Origin: an uncultured Olsenella sp.
Lineage (GTDB): Bacteria > Actinomycetota > Coriobacteriia > Coriobacteriales > Atopobiaceae
Assembly (NCBI GenBank): GCA_900314575.1
Contig: OMVS01000010.1
Coordinates: 1-39,581 of the forward strand
Direction of reading: 5' to 3'
Length of the DNA: 39,581 nt
The position numbers and the translations under genes were made by a program. Shown here in pieces: positions 558 to 9,784 of the stretch (within the stretch, counting starts at the first letter, position 1; every line of letters starts with the position of its first letter). Under the pieces are notes generated by a model. That model was not told the origin of the DNA and ran no database searches. It saw only the letters and a list, made by a program, of their open reading frames with translations.

Positions 558-1433
558 TTAGGGAAGCTGGGGAATGATCCGCTGCGCGTAGGTCACGAAG
601 CGCTCTACGGCCGGCGTGTTCTCGCTCTCGTCGGGGATGGCGATGCCCAGGTCGATCGAGCTCGCAGGCTCCACGGGGAGGAGCGCCATCCTGGTGGAGA
701 GGCCCTGGGTGATCAGGCGGTTGGTGATGACGAGGCCCAGGCCCTGCTCGACCATGCGGAAGGCCGGGTAGTTGTACAGGGTGGAGATGCTGTACTCGAC
801 CTTCACCCCGGAGCCCTCGATGAGCCTCAGCACGTCCACGTCCGCGCCGTACGCCGGGAAGATCAGGGTCTCGCCCACGAGTTGGTCGAGACGGACGGAG
901 GACTGGGCTGCCAGGGGGTGGTCCGGCGGGATGGCGACCATCATGGGGTCCTTCCGGAGGAAGACCCAGCGGTACGGGATGGTGGGGAAGTAGCTGTAGA
1001 ACCCGATGTCCGCCTGGCGGTTGGCGAGGTAGTTGGCGACCTCCTGCCACACGCCCTCGAAGAGGTGGATCTTGATTCGGGGGTAGTCCTTGTGGAAGGC
1101 GGCGATGACCTCGGGCAGCCACTCGCTCGCCACGCTTGCGTACGAGGCGATGCGCAGGGTGCCGGTCGCGAGCCCCTTGACCTCCGAGATGACCTGGGTG
1201 AGCTGCTCGTCCTTGCCGCAGGCGTCGCGGATGAGGGGGATGAGCTTGACCGCGTTGGAGGTGGGGGAGACGCCCTGCTTGCTGCGGACCAGGAGCGGGA
1301 AGCCGATCTCTCCCTCGAAGGCGTCCATCATGTGGCTCACGCCGGAGGGGGTGTAGCCGAAGTAGCGCGCGGCCTTCGAGAGACTGCCGGTGTCGACCGC
1401 CTTGAGGAAGACCTGCGCCTTCCACATGTCCAC
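558..1433 (-). CDS. LysR-family transcriptional regulator
   Basis: A 291-residue protein of standard LysR length. An N-terminal winged helix-turn-helix (about residues 1-60) contains FLKAVDTGSLSKAARYFGYT followed by SGVSHMMDAFEGEIGFPLL. The rest (about 90-291) is a periplasmic-binding-protein-like effector domain. The start used is GTG at 1433, 4 nt after GGGGGTGG; an ATG at 1427 is equally possible and removes two residues. It lies between a putative Se/S carrier gene and grdX, all on the minus strand, so it may control the glycine reductase operon downstream. That target is inferred from position; the effector is unknown. Confidence 0.85.
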   Translation of the reverse strand: MDMWKAQVFLKAVDTGSLSKAARYFGYTPSGVSHMMDAFEGEIGFPLLVRSKQGVSPTSNAVKLIPLIRDACGKDEQLTQVISEVKGLATGTLRIASYASVASEWLPEVIAAFHKDYPRIKIHLFEGVWQEVANYLANRQADIGFYSYFPTIPYRWVFLRKDPMMVAIPPDHPLAAQSSVRLDQLVGETLIFPAYGADVDVLRLIEGSGVKVEYSISTLYNYPAFRMVEQGLGLVITNRLITQGLSTRMALLPVEPASSIDLGIAIPDESENTPAVERFVTYAQRIIPQLP

Positions 1434-1617: not shown

Positions 1618-1860
1618 CTACAGCATGAGCTCGTGGAGCGACGAGGGCGTGAGGCCGACCTTCTCCATCTCGTCCAGGATCTGCTGCCTGTCGGCGGGGT
1701 CCGCCTTCCAGACCATGCCGCAGCCAGCCGAGATCTGGGGCGGCATGGGGATGATGCGCCCGGGCACGCCGTCGCGCTCGCAGGCGGTCTCCATGGCCAT
1801 CGCGTCAGTGGTGCGGTCGAAGGCGACGATGAGGGTGTTCTTCTTGGGTGAGAGTGGCAT
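1618..1860 (-). CDS. DUF3343 protein, putative Se/S carrier-like
   Basis: An 80-residue protein of typical DUF3343 (Se_S_carrier) length. It begins with a ferredoxin-like strand-helix segment, LIVAFDRTTDAMAMETACE, and continues with RIIPMPPQISAGCGMVW, the family hallmark with a conserved cysteine (Cys47). Members recur beside selenium and sulfur metabolism genes and are proposed, not proven, to carry Se or S. It is transcribed divergently from selD, 123 bp away, and in line with the LysR and grdX genes. GCGAGGA lies upstream of the ATG at 1860. Both neighbourhoods support a selenium role, but the reaction is unknown. Confidence 0.8.
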   Translation of the reverse strand: MPLSPKKNTLIVAFDRTTDAMAMETACERDGVPGRIIPMPPQISAGCGMVWKADPADRQQILDEMEKVGLTPSSLHELML

Positions 1861-1983: not shown

Positions 1984-3027
1984 ATGAGCAAGCACGTCGC
2001 GAAGAAGCTTACGGAGATGACCGCGGCCTCGGGCTGAGCCGCCAAGATGGCGCCCGGCGCCCTCGCTCAGGTCCTGAGCGACCTCCCCAACGTCTTCAAC
2101 CCCGCCCTGCTGATCGGCTACGACACGGCGGACGACGCCTACGTCTACAAGGTGAACGACGAGACGGCCCTGATCGGCACCGTGGACTTCTTCCCTCCGA
2201 TGGTGGACGACCCCTACCTCTTTGGCCAGATCGCGGCCGCCAACGCCCTCTCGGACGTCTACGCCATGGGCGGCGAGCCCAAGATCGCGATGAACCTCCT
2301 GTGCTGGCCCAACTGCCTCGGCGTGGAGATGGCCGGCGAGGTGCTGCGCGGCGGCGCCGACAAGGCCGTGGAGGCCGGCTGCACGATCGCCGGCGGCCAC
2401 ACCATCGTGGACGACGAGCCCAAGTACGGCATGTGCGTCACCGGCTTCGCCCGGCCCGAGGACATCCTCGCCAACAGCGCGGCGCGCCCCGGCGACCTGC
2501 TCGTCGCCACGAAGAAGGTCGGCTCCGGCATCCTCAACACCGCCGTCAAGGGCGGGCTGCTCGAGCAGGCCGACATGACCGAGCTCTACCGCCAGATGAG
2601 CACCCTCAACAAGTACGCGGCCGAGGTGGGCCACCACTTCGACGTGCACGCCTGCACCGACATCACGGGCTTCGGCCTGGCCGGCCACCTCTGCGAGATG
2701 GCCGAGGGCGCGGGCCTCACGGCCGTCCTCCGCTATGAGGACGTGCCCCTGATGGACGACGTCGAGGAGTTCGCACGCATGGGCATCATCCCGGCCGGCA
2801 CCTACCGCAACCACGACTACTTCGCGGACCGCGTGAGGGTCTCCGAGGCGCTGCCCCAGGTGGCGGCCGACGTGCTGTTCGACCCGCAGTCCTCGGGTGG
2901 CCTCATGTTCGCGATCGGCCCCGACGAGGCCGACGAGTTCCAGGACGTGCTCTCCGCTGAGGGCATCGACTCCAACGTGGTCGGTGAGTTCGAGGAGAAG
3001 CGGGACTGCTTCGTCCGCATCGTCTAG
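1984..3027 (+). CDS. selD: Selenide, water dikinase, itself a selenoprotein (in-frame UGA)
   Basis: SelD makes selenophosphate from selenide and ATP for Sec-tRNA synthesis. The open frame after UGA encodes about 326 residues with SelD motifs (NALSDVYAMGG, IAGGHTIVDD, TDITGFGLAGH, DPQSSGG). Directly upstream and in frame, ATG at 1984 gives MSKHVAKKLTEMTAASG, then TGA at 2035-2037, then AAKMAPG. This equals the catalytic Cys/Sec loop of SelD: Sec18 and Lys21 correspond to Cys17 and Lys20 of the E. coli enzyme. The full product is 347 residues. An ATG at 1972, 5 nt after a GGGAGG-type site, is an alternative start; the one at 1984 has GGGAG 5 nt upstream. A SECIS-like hairpin follows the UGA. 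Calling the gene from 2047 would delete the catalytic residue. A glycosyltransferase gene follows 31 nt downstream. Confidence 0.95.
2035..2080 (+). promoter_or_regulatory. Selenocysteine UGA codon and bacterial SECIS-like hairpin in selD
   Basis: TGA at 2035-2037 is followed by CGCTCAG (2064-2070), GTC, CTGAGCG (2074-2080), a perfect 7-bp stem. Opening the top pairs gives an AGGUCCU apical loop, close to the AGGUCU loop of the E. coli fdhF SECIS that binds SelB. The loop starts about 32 nt after the UGA, within the spacing known for bacterial elements. The hairpin lies inside the coding sequence, as expected in bacteria. Confidence 0.85.
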
Positions 3028-3058
3028 GCCCGGAAGGCGGGCCAGGAAGGGGAGACCC

Positions 3059-4273
3059 ATGCGCGTCCTCAACGTCTCGGCGCAGAAGCCCGACACCACC
3101 GGCAGCGGCATCTACCTCGCCGAGACGGTGAGGAGCGAGATCGCGATGGGGCACGAGGCCGCCGTCGTCTGCGGCCTCGGGGCCGAGGACGGGACGCCGA
3201 CCCTGCCCGCCGCCGCGCGCGTCTACCCCGTGAGGTTCGACACGCCGGAGCTCCCCTTCCACGTCTGCGGGATGTCCGACGTGATGCCCTACCCGGCGAC
3301 CCGCTACCGCGACCTCACGCCGGAGATGGCCGGGCTGCTCGAGCGCGCCTTCACGGCGCGCATCCGCCAGACGCTCGAGGAGTTCGCCCCCGACGTCGTG
3401 GTCTGCCACCATCTCTACCTCGTCACGGCGCTCGTGCGCGAGTGCGCGCCCGACCTGCCGGTCGGGGCCGTATGCCACTCGACGGGCCTGCGCCAGCTCG
3501 CGCAGATCCCCTTCGAGCGCGAGCGGATCTGCCGGGACGTCCGTGCGCTCGACGCCGTCTTCGCCCTGCACGAGGCGCAGGCGGCCCGCATCTCAGACGA
3601 GCTCGACGTGGATCCGAGGCGCATCCACGTCGTGGGCGCTGGCATCAACACCCGCCTCTTCTCGCGCGGCGGTGCCGGGACGCCCGCGCGCCGGCGCGGG
3701 CGCATCTGCTACGCGGGCAAGATCTGGAGCAAGAAGGGCGTGATGAGCCTCGTCGAGGCGCTCGACCTCATCTCACCCGAGATGCTGCCGGAGGGCGTCC
3801 GCGGCCTGGAGGTCAGGATGGCGGGTGCCGCCGGCGCCGACCGCGAGGACTTCGAGGCCATCGTCTCGCGGGCCCGGGCCTGCCGCTGGCCGATTGAGTT
3901 CCTCGGCAAGCTGCCCCAGGACCGACTGGCCGACGAGTACCGCGCTGCCGAGGTCTACGTGCTGCCCTCCTTCTACGAGGGGCTGCCGCTCGTGGTGGGG
4001 GAGGCGCTCGCCTGCGGTTGCAAGGACGTGGTGAGCGACCTCCCGGGCCTGCGTCCCTGGTACGCGAGCCACGTGCCCGGCGCCCCGATAGTCTGGGTCG
4101 AGCCGCCCCGGATGGCGGGGGTCGACGAGCCGGTGGCAGCCGAGCTGCCGGCCTTCTCGGAGCGCGTCGCCCGTGCCCTCGTCGAGGCCCTGGCGATGCC
4201 TGCGCCCGACTGCGACGTGAGCGCGATGTCGTGGGACCGCATCGCCGCTGACGTAATCGAGGGCTTGCAATAG
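3059..4273 (+). CDS. GT-B glycosyltransferase (family 4-like) in the selenium locus
   Basis: A 404-residue protein with a two-domain GT-B layout. The N-terminal half (1-190) has the glycine-rich opening GSGIYLAETVRSEIAMGHE and the segment PDVVVCHHLYLV. The C-terminal half has a nucleotide-sugar-binding layout with CYAGKIWSKKG and the E-x7-E motif FYEGLPLVVGEALACG. No signal peptide or membrane segment is seen, so it is probably cytoplasmic. GGAAGGGGAG precedes the ATG at 3059; the frame is open further upstream but that part overlaps selD. It sits 31 nt after selD and 126 nt before selC, apparently co-transcribed with selD. No glycosyltransferase belongs to the classical Sec pathway. By analogy to the selenosugar synthase SenB, which pairs with a SelD homologue in selenoneine synthesis, it could use selenophosphate, but I cannot show homology to SenB. 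Donor and acceptor are unknown. Confidence 0.85.
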   Translation: MRVLNVSAQKPDTTGSGIYLAETVRSEIAMGHEAAVVCGLGAEDGTPTLPAAARVYPVRFDTPELPFHVCGMSDVMPYPATRYRDLTPEMAGLLERAFTARIRQTLEEFAPDVVVCHHLYLVTALVRECAPDLPVGAVCHSTGLRQLAQIPFERERICRDVRALDAVFALHEAQAARISDELDVDPRRIHVVGAGINTRLFSRGGAGTPARRRGRICYAGKIWSKKGVMSLVEALDLISPEMLPEGVRGLEVRMAGAAGADREDFEAIVSRARACRWPIEFLGKLPQDRLADEYRAAEVYVLPSFYEGLPLVVGEALACGCKDVVSDLPGLRPWYASHVPGAPIVWVEPPRMAGVDEPVAAELPAFSERVARALVEALAMPAPDCDVSAMSWDRIAADVIEGLQ

Positions 4274-4399
4274 TCATCGCGTTTAATATAATCGTTCTCG
4301 GATTTCAGGTGCTCCACCTCCTGGGGTAGTATAGCCAGCGTCGGTGCCGGTGTGTAAAAGCACGTCGCCGCTCTCTGGGTTCGGAGGGGGAGAGCATTT
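4265..4399 (+). promoter_or_regulatory. Promoter and leader for selC
   Basis: TTGCAA (4265-4270), a 16-nt spacer and a consensus TATAAT (4287-4292) overlap the end of the glycosyltransferase gene. This predicts a start near 4299 and a leader of about 100 nt before the tRNA. The leader holds a small perfect hairpin, AGGTG-CTC-CACCT (4307-4319), and a second -10-like TAGTAT (4327-4332). Confidence 0.6.
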
Positions 4400-4496
4400 G
4401 GGGGTAGAAGGGTAACTGGTGTGCCTCCTGGTCTTCAAAACCAGTGTGAGCAGTTGTAGCTGCTCGGGTGGGTTCGATTCCCACCTGCTCCCGCCA
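4400..4496 (+). tRNA. selC: tRNA-Sec (anticodon UCA)
   Basis: A 97-nt tRNA with CCA encoded (4494-4496) and G discriminator. The acceptor is 8 bp, GGGGGTAG (4400-4407) with CTGCTCCC (4485-4492), including two G-U wobbles. The anticodon arm is CTGGT-CTTCAAA-ACCAG with anticodon TCA at 4435-4437. The long variable arm is GAGCAG-TTGTAG-CTGCTC (4448-4465). The T arm is GTGGG-TTCGATT-CCCAC (4468-4484). The 8+5 bp acceptor/T stack and long extra arm are hallmarks of bacterial tRNA-Sec. The D arm is weak: GGGTA with TGCCT, again with two wobbles. It sits directly before selA and selB, which act on it. Confidence 0.95.
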
Positions 4497-4504
4497 AAGC
4501 CTCA

Positions 4505-4542
4505 GCGGTACCCAAATAGTATATTTGGGTACCGCTTTTTTT
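4505..4542 (+). terminator. Strong intrinsic terminator between selC and selA
   Basis: GCGGTACCCAAATA (4505-4518) pairs perfectly over 14 bp with TATTTGGGTACCGC (4522-4535) around a GTA loop, followed by seven T (4536-4542). It begins 9 nt after the tRNA CCA end and finishes 24 nt before the selA ATG. It should end the tRNA transcript. The 24-nt gap leaves little room for a selA promoter downstream, so selAB probably depends on read-through or a start within selC. Confidence 0.9.
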
Positions 4543-4566: not shown

Positions 4567-5994
4567 ATGGATCAAAGGCTTCTGATGCAAATCCCCAAGG
4601 TGGACGTCCTGCTTGCGGAGGAGCCGCTCGTGCGACTTGAGGCGGACTTCACGCACGACCAGATCAAGGATGCCGCCCGCAGCCACCTCCAGTCCCTGCG
4701 CGAGGGCGTGCTCGCCGGCGAGCTCGCAGAGATCGACCCGCCCGAGAAGGTCGCGGAGGCCGTGGCCCGTACGCTCGAGAGCCGCGGCGCCTACAGCCTG
4801 CGCCCCGTCATCAACGCGACCGGCGTGGTCCTGCACACCAACCTCGGGCGCTCGCCGCTCGGCGAGGCCGTGGCCGAGCACGTGGCCGTGGTCGCCGCCG
4901 GCTACTGCAACCTCGAGTACAACCTGGAGCGCGGCGAGCGCGGCTCGCGCTACAACCACGTCGAGCGCATCATCTGCGAGATCACGGGCGCCGAGGCGGC
5001 CATGGTCGTGAACAACAACGCCGGCGCCGTCTTCCTGATGCTCAACACGCTCTGCAAGGGCCAGGGCGTCGCGGTCTCGCGCGGCGAGCAGGTCGAGATC
5101 GGCGGCTCCTTCCGCGTGCCCGAGATCATGGTGCAGAGCGGCGCCCGCCTGATCGAGGTCGGCACCACCAACAAGACCCACGAGGCGGACTACGCCCGCG
5201 CCATCGGCGAACAGGGCGCCTCCGCCCTCCTCAAGGTCCACCCCTCCAACTTCGCGATGGTCGGCTTCACGGAGTCCGTCTCCGTGGCGCAGCTCTCCGA
5301 CCTCGCGCGCGACTCCGGGGCCCTCGTCCTGTACGACATGGGCTCGGCGCCCCTCTTCCCCAACGAGGTCGCCGGCCTCGACAACCAGGAGACCATCCGT
5401 GGCGTCCTCAGGGACGGCGCGGACGTCGTGTGCTTCTCGGGCGACAAGCTCGCGGGCTCCGCGCAGGGCGGCATCCTGGTGGGCAGGCGCGACCTCATCG
5501 AGCGCATCCGCGCCAACCAGCTCACCCGCATGCTCCGCATCGACAAGCTCTCGCTAGCCGCTCTCGAGATGACCATGCAGCTCTGCCGCGATCCCAGGCT
5601 CGCGCGCCGCGAGGTACCCGTCGTGCGGATGCTGTCCATGACCGCTGACGAGCTCAGGGGTCGCGCCGAGGCCCTCGACGAGGCCATCGCCGCCATCGGT
5701 GGCGTCGAGCACGAGGTCGTCGCCGTGAAGGACGAGCCCGGCGGCGGCTCGCTGCCCGACGTCCTTCTCGACGGCTACGCCGTGAGCGTGACCGTGGCGG
5801 GCCTTGCCCCCGCCGAGCTGGAGCGACGCCTCCGCGAGGCGTCCACGCCGATCGTCGCGCGCGTGAGCAAGGAGCAGGTGCTCCTCTCCGCCCGCACCAT
5901 CATGGACGGCGACGTCGAGCGCGTCTGCGCCGCCCTCGCCGAGATCGCGCAGGCCGGTGGCGAGGAGCAGCCCGCGGGAGGTGCTGAGCGATGA
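4567..5994 (+). CDS. selA: L-seryl-tRNA(Sec) selenium transferase
   Basis: SelA is the PLP enzyme that converts Ser-tRNA(Sec) to Sec-tRNA(Sec) with selenophosphate. The 475-residue product has the usual length. Features include an N-terminal helical segment starting MDQRLLMQIPKVDVLL, the motif INATGVVLHTNLGRSPL, NLEYNLERGERGSRY, VVNNNAGAV, and the PLP lysine in SGDKLAGSAQGG at Lys294 (Lys295 in E. coli). GGAGG lies 5 nt before the ATG at 4567; the frame stays open upstream through selC, but that stretch is tRNA. The stop overlaps the selB start by 4 nt (ATGA), indicating translational coupling. Confidence 0.97.
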   Translation: MDQRLLMQIPKVDVLLAEEPLVRLEADFTHDQIKDAARSHLQSLREGVLAGELAEIDPPEKVAEAVARTLESRGAYSLRPVINATGVVLHTNLGRSPLGEAVAEHVAVVAAGYCNLEYNLERGERGSRYNHVERIICEITGAEAAMVVNNNAGAVFLMLNTLCKGQGVAVSRGEQVEIGGSFRVPEIMVQSGARLIEVGTTNKTHEADYARAIGEQGASALLKVHPSNFAMVGFTESVSVAQLSDLARDSGALVLYDMGSAPLFPNEVAGLDNQETIRGVLRDGADVVCFSGDKLAGSAQGGILVGRRDLIERIRANQLTRMLRIDKLSLAALEMTMQLCRDPRLARREVPVVRMLSMTADELRGRAEALDEAIAAIGGVEHEVVAVKDEPGGGSLPDVLLDGYAVSVTVAGLAPAELERRLREASTPIVARVSKEQVLLSARTIMDGDVERVCAALAEIAQAGGEEQPAGGAER

Positions 5995-7895
5995 AGCACG
6001 TCGTCATCGGAACCGCAGGCCACGTAGACCACGGCAAGACCTGGCTCACGCGCGCCCTGACGGGCGTCAACACGGACCGCCTCGAGGAGGAGCAGCGCCG
6101 CGGCATCACGCTCGACCTCGGCTTCGCGCAGCTCGAGCTTCCCAACGGCCAGGACGCCAGCATCGTCGACGTGCCGGGCCACGAGAAGCTCGTGCGCAAC
6201 ATGATCGTCGGCGCCACGGGCATCGACGTGGTCCTGCTCGTCGTCGCGGCCGACGAGGGCTTCATGCCTCAGACGCAGGAGCACCTCGACATCCTCCAGC
6301 TGCTCGACGTCAAGAGCGGCATCATCGTCCTCACCAAGAAGGACCTCGTGGACGACGACTGGCTGCAGGTCGTGACCGAGGACACCCGCGAGCGCGTCAA
6401 GGGCACCTTCCTCGAGAACGCCCCCGTCATCCCCGTGTCCGCCGAGACGGGCGAGAACATCGAGCTGCTCAAGCGCGAGATCGTGAAGATCGTGGAGCAC
6501 GCGGACCTCAAGCGCACCGACAACCCCTTCCGCCTCCCGGTGGACCGCGTCTTCACCAAGAAGGGCTTCGGCACCATCGTGACCGGCACCCTCGTAGACG
6601 GGACGCTACGCATGGGCGACGTCGCCGACGTCTACCCCCAGGAGGTCACCGCCAAGGTGAGGGGGCTCCAGACCCACAACGTCGCCCAGCCGGAGGTCTA
6701 CGCCGGCATGCGCGTCGCCGTCAACCTGACGGGCGTGGACACCTCCGTTATCCGTCGCGGCTGCACCGTGGCCGCGCCGGAGTCGATGCTGCAGGCGAGC
6801 CAGGTCGCGGTCAGGCTCAACCTCCTCCCCGACAGCCCCTACGACGTGCGCAACTCCTCCCAGCTGCACTTCTACCACGGCACGCAGGAGCTCATGGCGA
6901 AGGTCCGCCTGCTCGACCGCGACGTGCTCGAGGCGGGCGACAGCTGCTTCGCCCAGCTCACCCTCAACAAGGAGCTGACGATGAGGAACCAGGACAAGTT
7001 CATCGTCCGGTTCTTCTCGCCCGTGGTGACCGTCGGCGGCGGCGAGATTCTCGAGCCGACCAGCCGCAAGCTGCGCCGCAACGACCAGCGCGTCCTCGCC
7101 CACCTCGCCCACCTCGCGTGGGCTCCGGAGGACCGCGCCCGCCAGATTGTGCTCGACGCGGGCATCCACCCGCTCTCGGTCGCGGAGGTGGCCTCGCTCG
7201 CCGGCATGTCGGAAGGCAGCGTCCAGACCACCCTCGACAAGTTCGTGGAGCAGGGCTCCATCGAGCGGATCGGTCAGGGCTACGTGAGCGAGGAGGCCCT
7301 GCAGGAGCTCTCCACCGCCACGGCCAAGCTGGTCGGCAACTACCACAGGACCCACACCCTGGACGACGGCATGAGCCTCGGCGAGCTGCGCCAGAGGATC
7401 TACCCCAAGAGCCAGTCGCTCGCCAACGCGCTCATCGACTGGCTCCAGGCCCACGGGGTCATCGAGCAGTCCGGCGGCATCGTGCGCATCCCGGGCTTCG
7501 AGCCCACCTTCACGGACGTGCAGCGCAAGATGCTCGACCAGCTTGACGAGTTCTACCTCAAGGCCGACCTCGAGCCGCCCACCAACGAGGAGGTCACCCA
7601 GGCCTTCCAGGACAGGCACGGCACCTTCAACGAGGTCATGGCCCACATGCTCAAGCGGGGAACGCTCGTGGCGCTCTCGCCCACGACCTCGGTGCACCGC
7701 AGCGCCTACGCCAAGGCCCTCTCGACCTTCATGGGCATGTTCGCCGAGTCGAGCACCGTCGCCATCGGCGACTTCCGCACCAAGCTGGGCGTCTCGCGCA
7801 AGTACGCCCAGCTCTACCTCGAGTACTTCGACGCCTGCCACATTTCCAAGATGGTCGACGGCGTCCGTGTGCTGGTCAAGCCAAACTTCAGCTAG
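5991..7895 (+). CDS. selB: Selenocysteine-specific elongation factor SelB
   Basis: SelB delivers Sec-tRNA to the ribosome at UGA codons that carry a SECIS. The 634-residue protein has an N-terminal EF-Tu-like GTPase domain with G1 GTAGHVDHGKT, G2 RGITLDLGF, G3 DVPGHEKL and G4 TKKD. Domains II/III follow (KKGFGTIVTGTL), and about 260 C-terminal residues form the winged-helix repeats that bind the mRNA hairpin. It starts inside the selA stop (ATGA). yedF follows 14 nt downstream, so selA-selB-yedF is one operon. The likely targets here are the selD UGA and the reductase genes beyond the left edge. Confidence 0.97.
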   Translation: MKHVVIGTAGHVDHGKTWLTRALTGVNTDRLEEEQRRGITLDLGFAQLELPNGQDASIVDVPGHEKLVRNMIVGATGIDVVLLVVAADEGFMPQTQEHLDILQLLDVKSGIIVLTKKDLVDDDWLQVVTEDTRERVKGTFLENAPVIPVSAETGENIELLKREIVKIVEHADLKRTDNPFRLPVDRVFTKKGFGTIVTGTLVDGTLRMGDVADVYPQEVTAKVRGLQTHNVAQPEVYAGMRVAVNLTGVDTSVIRRGCTVAAPESMLQASQVAVRLNLLPDSPYDVRNSSQLHFYHGTQELMAKVRLLDRDVLEAGDSCFAQLTLNKELTMRNQDKFIVRFFSPVVTVGGGEILEPTSRKLRRNDQRVLAHLAHLAWAPEDRARQIVLDAGIHPLSVAEVASLAGMSEGSVQTTLDKFVEQGSIERIGQGYVSEEALQELSTATAKLVGNYHRTHTLDDGMSLGELRQRIYPKSQSLANALIDWLQAHGVIEQSGGIVRIPGFEPTFTDVQRKMLDQLDEFYLKADLEPPTNEEVTQAFQDRHGTFNEVMAHMLKRGTLVALSPTTSVHRSAYAKALSTFMGMFAESSTVAIGDFRTKLGVSRKYAQLYLEYFDACHISKMVDGVRVLVKPNFS

Positions 7896-7909: not shown

Positions 7910-8527
7910 ATGAGCGAGAAGACCGTCGAGGTGGACGCGATTGGGCTGGCGTGCCCCACGCCCGTCGTCAAGACCGTCAAGGCCATCAAGGGTCTGGAGG
8001 GTGCCGGCGTCGTGAGGACCCTCGTCGACAACGAGATCGCGGTCAAGAACCTCTCCAAGCTCGCGTCTGACAAGGGCTATGGCTTTGAGTCCAAGCAGCT
8101 CGAGGACGGCAACTTCGAGGCGACCCTGACCGTCAGCGGCTCCGAGGCCCCCGCGAGCGAGTCCGACGCCGACTTCGCCGACCCCTCCAAGAGGAAGGCC
8201 GTCGTCGTGATCTCCTCCGACATGATGGGCACGGGCGAGGAGGAGCTGGGCCACAGCCTGCTCAAGAACTTCATCTACTCCCTGACGCAGGAGGACGTCC
8301 TGCCGTCCACCATCCTGTTCTACAACAGCGGCGTCCGCATGACCTGCGAGGGCTCGCCCGCGCTCGACGACCTCAAGCAGCTCGCCGCCGCCGGGGTCGA
8401 GATCCAGTCCTGTGGCATCTGCCTCAACTACTACGGCCTGACCGAGAAGCTCGCGGTCGGCGAGGTCACCAACATGTACGCCATCGCCGGCAAGCAGCTC
8501 GAGGCCTCCGTGGTCGTCAGGCCGTAG
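7910..8527 (+). CDS. yedF: Selenium metabolism protein YedF (TusA + DsrE domains)
   Basis: A 205-residue two-domain protein. Residues 1-75 are TusA/SirA-like with the sulfur/selenium-accepting motif Cys15-Pro-Thr-Pro. An acidic Ala/Ser-rich linker follows. Residues 100-205 are DsrE/DsrF-like (VVVISSDMMGTGEEELG) and contain Cys168-Gly-Ile-Cys171. This fusion is the selenium-associated YedF family (TIGR03527), found almost only in Sec-using genomes and thought to pass persulfide- or selenide-bound atoms between proteins; its exact reaction is unproven. AGGGAG precedes the ATG. It lies 14 nt after selB and is followed by a terminator at 8599. Confidence 0.93.
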   Translation: MSEKTVEVDAIGLACPTPVVKTVKAIKGLEGAGVVRTLVDNEIAVKNLSKLASDKGYGFESKQLEDGNFEATLTVSGSEAPASESDADFADPSKRKAVVVISSDMMGTGEEELGHSLLKNFIYSLTQEDVLPSTILFYNSGVRMTCEGSPALDDLKQLAAAGVEIQSCGICLNYYGLTEKLAVGEVTNMYAIAGKQLEASVVVRP

Positions 8528-8647: not shown

Positions 8648-9784
8648 ATGATCTACCTAGACAACGCCGCGACGACCATGCGCAAGCCGCCCGAGGTGGC
8701 GGAGGCCGTCGCGCGGGCGCTCCAGACGATGGGCAACGCCTCGCGCGGGGCGACCAAGGCGTCGCTGGCCGCCTCCCGGGTCGACTACGTCGCCAGGGAG
8801 CAGCTCGCCCGGCTCCTCGGCTGCCCGCGCCCGGACCACGTGGCCTTCGCGAGCAACTCCACCGAGGCGCTCAACGTGGCGATCATGGGCCTCGTCGACG
8901 CGGGCGCGCGGGTGGTGGGCACCGACCTCGAGCATAACTCCGTGCTGAGGCCGCTCTACCGCCTGCGCGACGAGCGCGGGGCGGACCTCGCCTTCGCGCG
9001 CGCCGACGAGCGGGGCAACCTCGACTACGAGGACCTCGAGCGCCTCGTCACCCCGGGCACGAGGCTGGTGGCGGTGACCCACGGCTCGAACGTGACGGGC
9101 AACATGGTCGACGTCGCCCGCGTCGTCGACATCGCGCACGCCGCCGGCGCCCTCGTGGTCGTCGACGCGTCGCAGACCGCGGGCAGCCACGAGGTCAGCC
9201 TCGAGGGCACCGGCGCGGACGTCGTCTGCTTCACCGGCCACAAGGGCCTCATGGGGCCCCAGGGCACGGGCGGCCTCTGCGTCGCCGAGGGCGTGGAGAT
9301 CCGCCCGTTCAAGGTGGGTGGCACGGGTGTCCACTCCTACTCGGAGACCCAGCCCGAGGAGTATCCGACGCGCCTCGAGGCGGGCACGCTCAACAGCCAC
9401 GGCATCGCCGGGCTCTCCGCGGCGCTCGACTTCATCGAGCGAGTCGGCGTGAAGGCCATCGGGGACCACGAGGAGGGGCTCATGAGGAGCTTCTACGAGC
9501 AGGTCCGCGCCATCGACGGCGTCACGGTCTACGGCGACTTCGACGCGGCGGAGCGCTGCGCGATCGTGTCGCTCAACGTGCGTGACTACAGCTCCTCGGC
9601 GGTGGCCGACGAGCTCGGCGAGCGCTACGGCATCGCCACCAGGCCAGGTGCCCACTGCGCGCCGAGGATGCACCGCGCGCTGGGGACGGTCGAGCAGGGC
9701 GTCGTGCGCTTCAGCTTCTCCTGGTACAGCACGGAGGAGGAGGTCGACGCCGCCGTCGCCGCCGTGCGGGAGATTGCCCGCTAG
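8648..9784 (+). CDS. Class V aminotransferase: cysteine desulfurase / selenocysteine lyase
   Basis: A 378-residue PLP enzyme that would release S from cysteine or Se from selenocysteine. It starts MIYLDNAATTMRKPPEV and has the PLP lysine in FTGHKGL (Lys199). A late cysteine in GAHCAPRM (Cys337) matches the persulfide cysteine of SufS/CsdB-type enzymes. It resembles the TIGR01977 subgroup often found beside selD/selA. GGGAGG precedes the ATG. Its place after yedF suggests it supplies selenium to SelD, possibly through YedF or the DUF3343 protein. Sequence alone cannot separate Cys from Sec preference. A hairpin follows at 9812. Confidence 0.88.
   Translation: MIYLDNAATTMRKPPEVAEAVARALQTMGNASRGATKASLAASRVDYVAREQLARLLGCPRPDHVAFASNSTEALNVAIMGLVDAGARVVGTDLEHNSVLRPLYRLRDERGADLAFARADERGNLDYEDLERLVTPGTRLVAVTHGSNVTGNMVDVARVVDIAHAAGALVVVDASQTAGSHEVSLEGTGADVVCFTGHKGLMGPQGTGGLCVAEGVEIRPFKVGGTGVHSYSETQPEEYPTRLEAGTLNSHGIAGLSAALDFIERVGVKAIGDHEEGLMRSFYEQVRAIDGVTVYGDFDAAERCAIVSLNVRDYSSSAVADELGERYGIATRPGAHCAPRMHRALGTVEQGVVRFSFSWYSTEEEVDAAVAAVREIAR

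Follow-up and report, generated by a model that had tools for sequence, protein, structure and literature searches.

A glycosyltransferase family tracking selD in Coriobacteriia and Clostridia, with a possible role in selenosugar formation

The window, that is the whole stretch of 39,581 nt that was analysed, carries a glycosyltransferase (GT) gene between selD and selC, which raises the question of what a sugar-transferring enzyme does among genes for selenium use. To our knowledge, the dedicated uses of selenophosphate are few, namely selenocysteine, selenouridine, the Se-Mo cofactor, and selenoneine/ovoselenol metabolites. The GT gene belongs to a broader selenium island with SeScar-like, selD, GT, selC, selA, selB, yedF, and selenocysteine-lyase-like genes, the features of which are as follows:

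558..1433, minus strand, divergent LysR-family regulator; the best NCBIfam match was the selenium-metabolism LysR model NF040786, below its cut-off
1618..1860, minus strand, Se_S_carrier-like (PF11823/DUF3343) small protein, clustering with the PF11823 matches of related loci
1984..3027, plus strand, selD, selenophosphate synthetase, with Sec (TGA) at residue 18 (TIGR00476, 378 bits, cut-off 125)
3059..4273, plus strand, GT4-family glycosyltransferase gene (404 aa), with E-x7-E at E307/E315 and the signature CGMSDxMPYxxTRYxDLT at 70-87
4265..4292, plus strand, sigma-70-like promoter TTGCAA-16-TATAAT, overlapping the GT stop codon and upstream of selC
4400..4496, plus strand, selC, tRNA-Sec (anticodon TCA)
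4504..4536, plus strand, strong intrinsic-terminator-like hairpin 3' of selC
4567..5994, plus strand, selA, L-seryl-tRNA(Sec) selenium transferase
5991..7895, plus strand, selB, Sec-specific elongation factor
7910..8527, plus strand, yedF, selenium-metabolism sulfurtransferase-like protein (TIGR03527)
8648..9784, plus strand, cysteine desulfurase / selenocysteine lyase-like protein (TIGR01977 over its cut-off, the SclA model below its own)

A sequence-only reading of this DNA had placed the GT gene 31 nt behind selD and its end at the selC promoter, and both points were borne out. The frame, with an ATG at 3059 and a stop at 4273, had zero internal stops, while the gap at 3028-3058 contained the ribosome-binding-like stretch GGAAGGGGAG and no terminator-like site was found on its plus strand. 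The promoter-like site at the end of the GT gene was the best in the scanned region, matching 10/12 positions (2 sites versus 0.2 expected). The spacing suggests that the GT is expressed in an operon with selD, the product of which is itself a selenoprotein with the in-frame TGA at codon 18 lying inside the full SelD match.

The encoded protein passed the Pfam cut-offs for Glyco_trans_1_4, Glycos_transf_1, and Glyco_transf_4, covering the N- and C-terminal GT4 domains, and zero NCBIfam models scored over their cut-offs. In an alignment of 78 family members, residues G15-S16-G17, K221/K226, E307, and E315 were invariant or nearly so, as was the family-specific stretch GMSxxMPY. The AF2 model (pLDDT 89) gave structure matches to GlgM, MshA, BshA, and PimA, with the CGMSDxMPY loop (73-79) being of low confidence. 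Frame and alignment show the window GT to be an intact gene with the canonical GT4 catalytic motif, and its product is probably active as an enzyme.

A GTDB contig scan with an alignment of 12 orthologues as the query yielded 80 loci at 37-61% identity from Coriobacteriia and Clostridia (37-62% over the orthologues as a whole), including Atopobiaceae, Eggerthellaceae, Collinsella, Lachnospiraceae, Oscillospiraceae, and Peptostreptococcaceae. A selenium gene lay at most 600 bp from the GT in 30/45 Coriobacteriial loci, in nine arrangements of gene, strand, and side for which the GT tree requires at least 17 changes among the Coriobacteriial loci; since these arrangements are spread over the tree, a single inherited gene order does not explain the linkage. 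No selenium gene was present in the available stretch at 11/45 Coriobacteriial loci and at 34/35 non-Coriobacteriial loci, selD not being near the GT in the latter. On the question raised in the sequence-only reading, whether homologues stay next to selD, most Coriobacteriial loci had a selenium gene close by, and in Clostridia the GT was unlinked. In Coriobacteriia, the interval separating the GT from the selenium genes repeatedly contained genes for double-cubane-cluster reductases (NF040772) and their activase (TIGR00241), as in L108:6467-9988, L095:11324-13954, L117, L131, and others, which suggests that an ATP-dependent reductase is linked to selenium metabolism.

Genome-wide co-occurrence extended the association beyond physical linkage. 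All 13 intact GT carriers among 101 sampled genomes of the window's taxonomic family were selD+, against a background of 48/101 (hypergeometric 2e-5, phylogeny ignored), as were all 16 carriers among 341 Clostridia genomes, drawn evenly, against 79/341 (2e-11, or 8e-11 without the centre genome, likewise ignoring phylogeny). A further carrier set found on contigs, mostly Clostridial, had selD in 30/32 genomes, and the two carriers without detected selD were MAGs, in which genes called missing are affected by incompleteness. The homologues therefore track selD, as opposed to lying mostly in exopolysaccharide clusters without it, which was the outcome named as adverse in the sequence-only reading. 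That the GT is an ordinary surface-glycan or exopolysaccharide enzyme placed beside selD by chance would agree with the abundance of GT4 enzymes and with the NCBIfam matches to exopolysaccharide and other GT4 families, all of them sub-threshold. This explanation was rejected as very improbable because of the strict selD co-occurrence in two phyla and the gene context, including the nine linked arrangements, the importer linkage described below, and the lack of any glycan cluster recognised at GT loci.

A GT serving the selenocysteine trait, in a selenoprotein-dependent pathway or by modifying a component of the Sec machinery, would account for its position between selD and selC in the window, for its presence in 7/8 selA+ genomes of the window's family, and for selA in 45/47 non-Coriobacteriial (Clostridial) carriers. 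However, selA was absent from 6/13 intact carriers of the window's family, which weakens the Sec trait as the sole link, and one genome without selA, G045, still had the order GT-permease-ATPase-SBP-selD-yedF-SeScar-SclA, leaving this explanation unlikely. A different tie, possibly to Se-Mo enzymes, was observed in genomes G021 and G023, where the GT was the last gene after modB-modC-moaA-moaC-moeA-mogA with xdhC nearby (L089:2142-8656; L090:5711-13413). Such a context, together with yqeB in 12/13 carriers of the window's family, would suit a GT that assists the assembly or loading of the selenium-molybdenum cofactor in Se-dependent Mo hydroxylases, but no yqeB match was obtained in the window's own genome or in about half of the Clostridial carriers, and yqeB+ non-carriers in the sample do without the GT. 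The yqeB-less carriers weaken the Se-Mo trait as the sole link, and we consider this role quite improbable. As carriers without selA and without yqeB exist, neither the Sec nor the Se-Mo trait alone is what the carriers have in common; the factor they share is selD.

Gene loss backed the same link. Genome G023 had selD, the importer, and the GT, whereas its congener G047 was without selD and an importer orthologue and retained only the last 176 GT residues (C-terminal; 92% identical) in a flank 95.6% identical to that of G023, a genus-level co-loss that supports the tie between GT and selD. In G016 (L092:7058-7927, minus strand), an in-frame fusion joined the first part of the GT to the terminal part of the SBP beside yedF-SeScar-SclA, which is apparently a deletion scar through a GT-permease-ATPase-SBP cassette, and selD was kept elsewhere in the genome. 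The nine linked arrangements, the strict selD co-occurrence where the genes are unlinked, and the co-loss in one genus strongly support a role of the GT in SelD-dependent selenium metabolism, as had been proposed from its position.

The most informative partner of the GT is an AfuA-like ABC importer that was absent from the sequence-only reading. Seven genomes of the window's family had the order GT-permease-ATPase-SBP with the GT first (an MFS gene intervening in G002) and Clostridial loci with the order SBP-permease-ATPase-GT occurred, such that a GT-importer operon was found in both phyla. SBP orthologues (>550 bits) were identified in 11 genomes of the window's family, of which 11/11 were selD+ and 10/11 had the GT, while the eight Clostridia genomes with the best SBPs were 8/8 selD+ and 6/8 with the GT. 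The association between GT and SBP persisted inside selD+ genomes alone (4e-7 in the window's family and 6e-4 in Clostridia, hypergeometric values that ignore phylogeny). Linkage and co-occurrence connect the GT with selD and with the importer, the placement of which varied: in G021 and G023 the importer adjoined selD with the GT about 45 kb away, and in the window's own genome the permease-ATPase-SBP genes were on contig C96 (L216:7578-11282), away from the selenium island. Genome G017, one of the 11 with an SBP orthologue but without the GT, had only a partial SBP (L219:12270-13124; profile residues 82-370) beside DCCP-activase-selD-yedF-SeScar-SclA, apparently left over from a cassette that was lost. 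A second importer type, more iron-SBP-like, adjoined the GT in L105, L125, and L153.

The nearest solved relatives of the SBP were VcA0625 and AfuA, which bind glucose-6-phosphate, and the pyridoxal phosphate protein P5PA (E 1e-49 to 4e-43); the AF2 model of the SBP was weak (pLDDT 65) and its fold matches merely agree with the sequence search. The phosphate-coordinating AfuA residues S37, G38, S148, G149, T150, and G185 were conserved, with S85, G86, S191, G192, and T193 of the SBP, equivalent to AfuA S37/G38/S148/G149/T150, invariant in alignment A3. In contrast, the sugar-coordinating residues differed, H205 being replaced by D248, D206 by a variable position, and E229 by the hydrophobic I/M272. 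Because the phosphate pocket is kept and the sugar triad of AfuA is replaced, a phosphorylated ligand is likely, consistent with phosphate-ester import; sugar-phosphate import of the AfuA type is not claimed since the sugar-binding triad is missing from the SBP. At nine loci (L141:11285-11956, L163:11152-11835, and others from Clostridia), the GT was followed by a PHP-domain phosphoesterase-like gene, which may encode a later pathway step.

These partners also bear on the main rival explanation, in which a thiol or carrier is made from an imported phosphorylated precursor. The mycothiol and bacillithiol routes involve a GT4 first step, a phosphorylated precursor, and a phosphatase. In the same style, the GT could build a sugar-based small molecule, such as a low-molecular-weight thiol or carrier, that reduces or carries selenide with selenium itself untouched by the enzyme. 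The occurrence of MshA and BshA among the closest folds to the GT, the phosphate-ester-type importer in its operon, and the phosphoesterase-like gene following it at nine loci are consistent with this route, but the neighbours examined included no recognisable deacetylase or Cys-ligase of the MshB/BshB or MshC/BshC type, and matches to GT4 folds are too generic to identify the acceptor. On balance, we regard this explanation as somewhat unlikely. Selenium dependence is predicted both by it and by a selenosugar product, and should the importer supply a phosphorylated acceptor, this compound, rather than selenium, may be what the GT acts on.

The best explanation overall, which we favour tentatively, is a selenosugar-forming GT acting with the importer in a SelD-dependent pathway. 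The GT would be an active NDP-sugar-dependent GT4 enzyme (GT-B fold, MshA/BshA/GlgM-like) of an unnamed family. Its acceptor would be the selenophosphate made by SelD or a selenol formed from it, and its donor a nucleotide sugar. The product would be a Se-glycoside, a selenium metabolite for use or storage, and the AfuA-like ABC importer would bring a phosphorylated small molecule into the same pathway. This selenosugar reading fits SelD dependence whatever the downstream trait and has a precedent in SenB. It supposes an acceptor containing selenium, and direct placement of the sugar on selenium by the GT is plausible, if far from assured. A possible but doubtful extension is that the family represents a second, independently evolved selenosugar synthase and that gut and rumen anaerobes among the Coriobacteriia and Clostridia have a new SelD-dependent trait, selenium small-molecule synthesis, served by a dedicated importer of phosphate esters. 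The confinement of this GT family to selD+ genomes, those of common gut bacteria such as Collinsella, Gordonibacter, Slackia, and Romboutsia among them, suggests that anaerobes contain a selenium-related metabolite or a compound for handling selenium that is so far undescribed, and the GT and importer are concrete handles for finding it.

The same detection logic, selD co-occurrence and linkage, had been applied to the selenium-associated YedE, YedF, DUF3343, and LysR_Se genes (Lin et al., 2015; PMC5322559). In Table 1 of that study, YedE of Slackia has the glycosyltransferase Shel_25140, a candidate member of the GT family, among its STRING partners; in the available part of its text, Shel_25140 is uncommented and the AfuA-like importer unmentioned (PMC5322559). 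Beyond SenB and the Slackia table, no literature tying a glycosyltransferase to selD was found in a partial coverage of the key literature.

Comparison with known systems sets the family apart at the level of orthology. SenB is a GT-B enzyme that transfers a sugar to selenophosphate and, according to a 2024 description, was the sole Se-glycosyltransferase identified until then (PMC10891094). The window GT scored 23.2 bits against the SenB model TIGR04348 (cut-off 300) and aligned with SenB at 21% identity over 222 columns, on which grounds SenB orthology was rejected; it is also longer (404 aa versus about 310 aa), has EGLPLV in place of the SenB donor motif EGGAHV (PMC10891094), and comes from a different lineage, with SenA/SenC neighbours absent at GT loci. 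The structural comparison with SenB advanced in the sequence-only reading gave no SenB entry among the top 50 PDB matches of the GT model, and of the suggested kinship a distant GT4-superfamily relation stood while no signature was shared beyond the fold. In the profile alignment, at this 21% identity, the SenB SeP-pocket residues H58 and T85 corresponded to the invariant H118 and to T142, whereas R61 and T83 were not conserved in the GT family and N20 fell beyond the aligned range. SenB K158 aligned with K226 and was dropped as evidence because it is a general GT4 lysine and hence not diagnostic. MshA and BshA, which ranked with the top matches by structure and by profile, share the retaining GT4 fold and E-x7-E, although the scores were below cut-off (39.2 bits against 462.5 for TIGR03449 and 18.4 against 273.7 for TIGR03999, respectively) and no later thiol-pathway genes were seen near the GT. 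By the tests run, the GT is best classed as a GT4 member that is neither SenB, MshA, nor BshA. Its likeness to SenB lies in the GT-B fold, a GT4-like donor domain with conserved Lys and Glu, a SelD-type partner gene (SenC in the SenABC selenoneine pathway), and a genomic tie to selenium.
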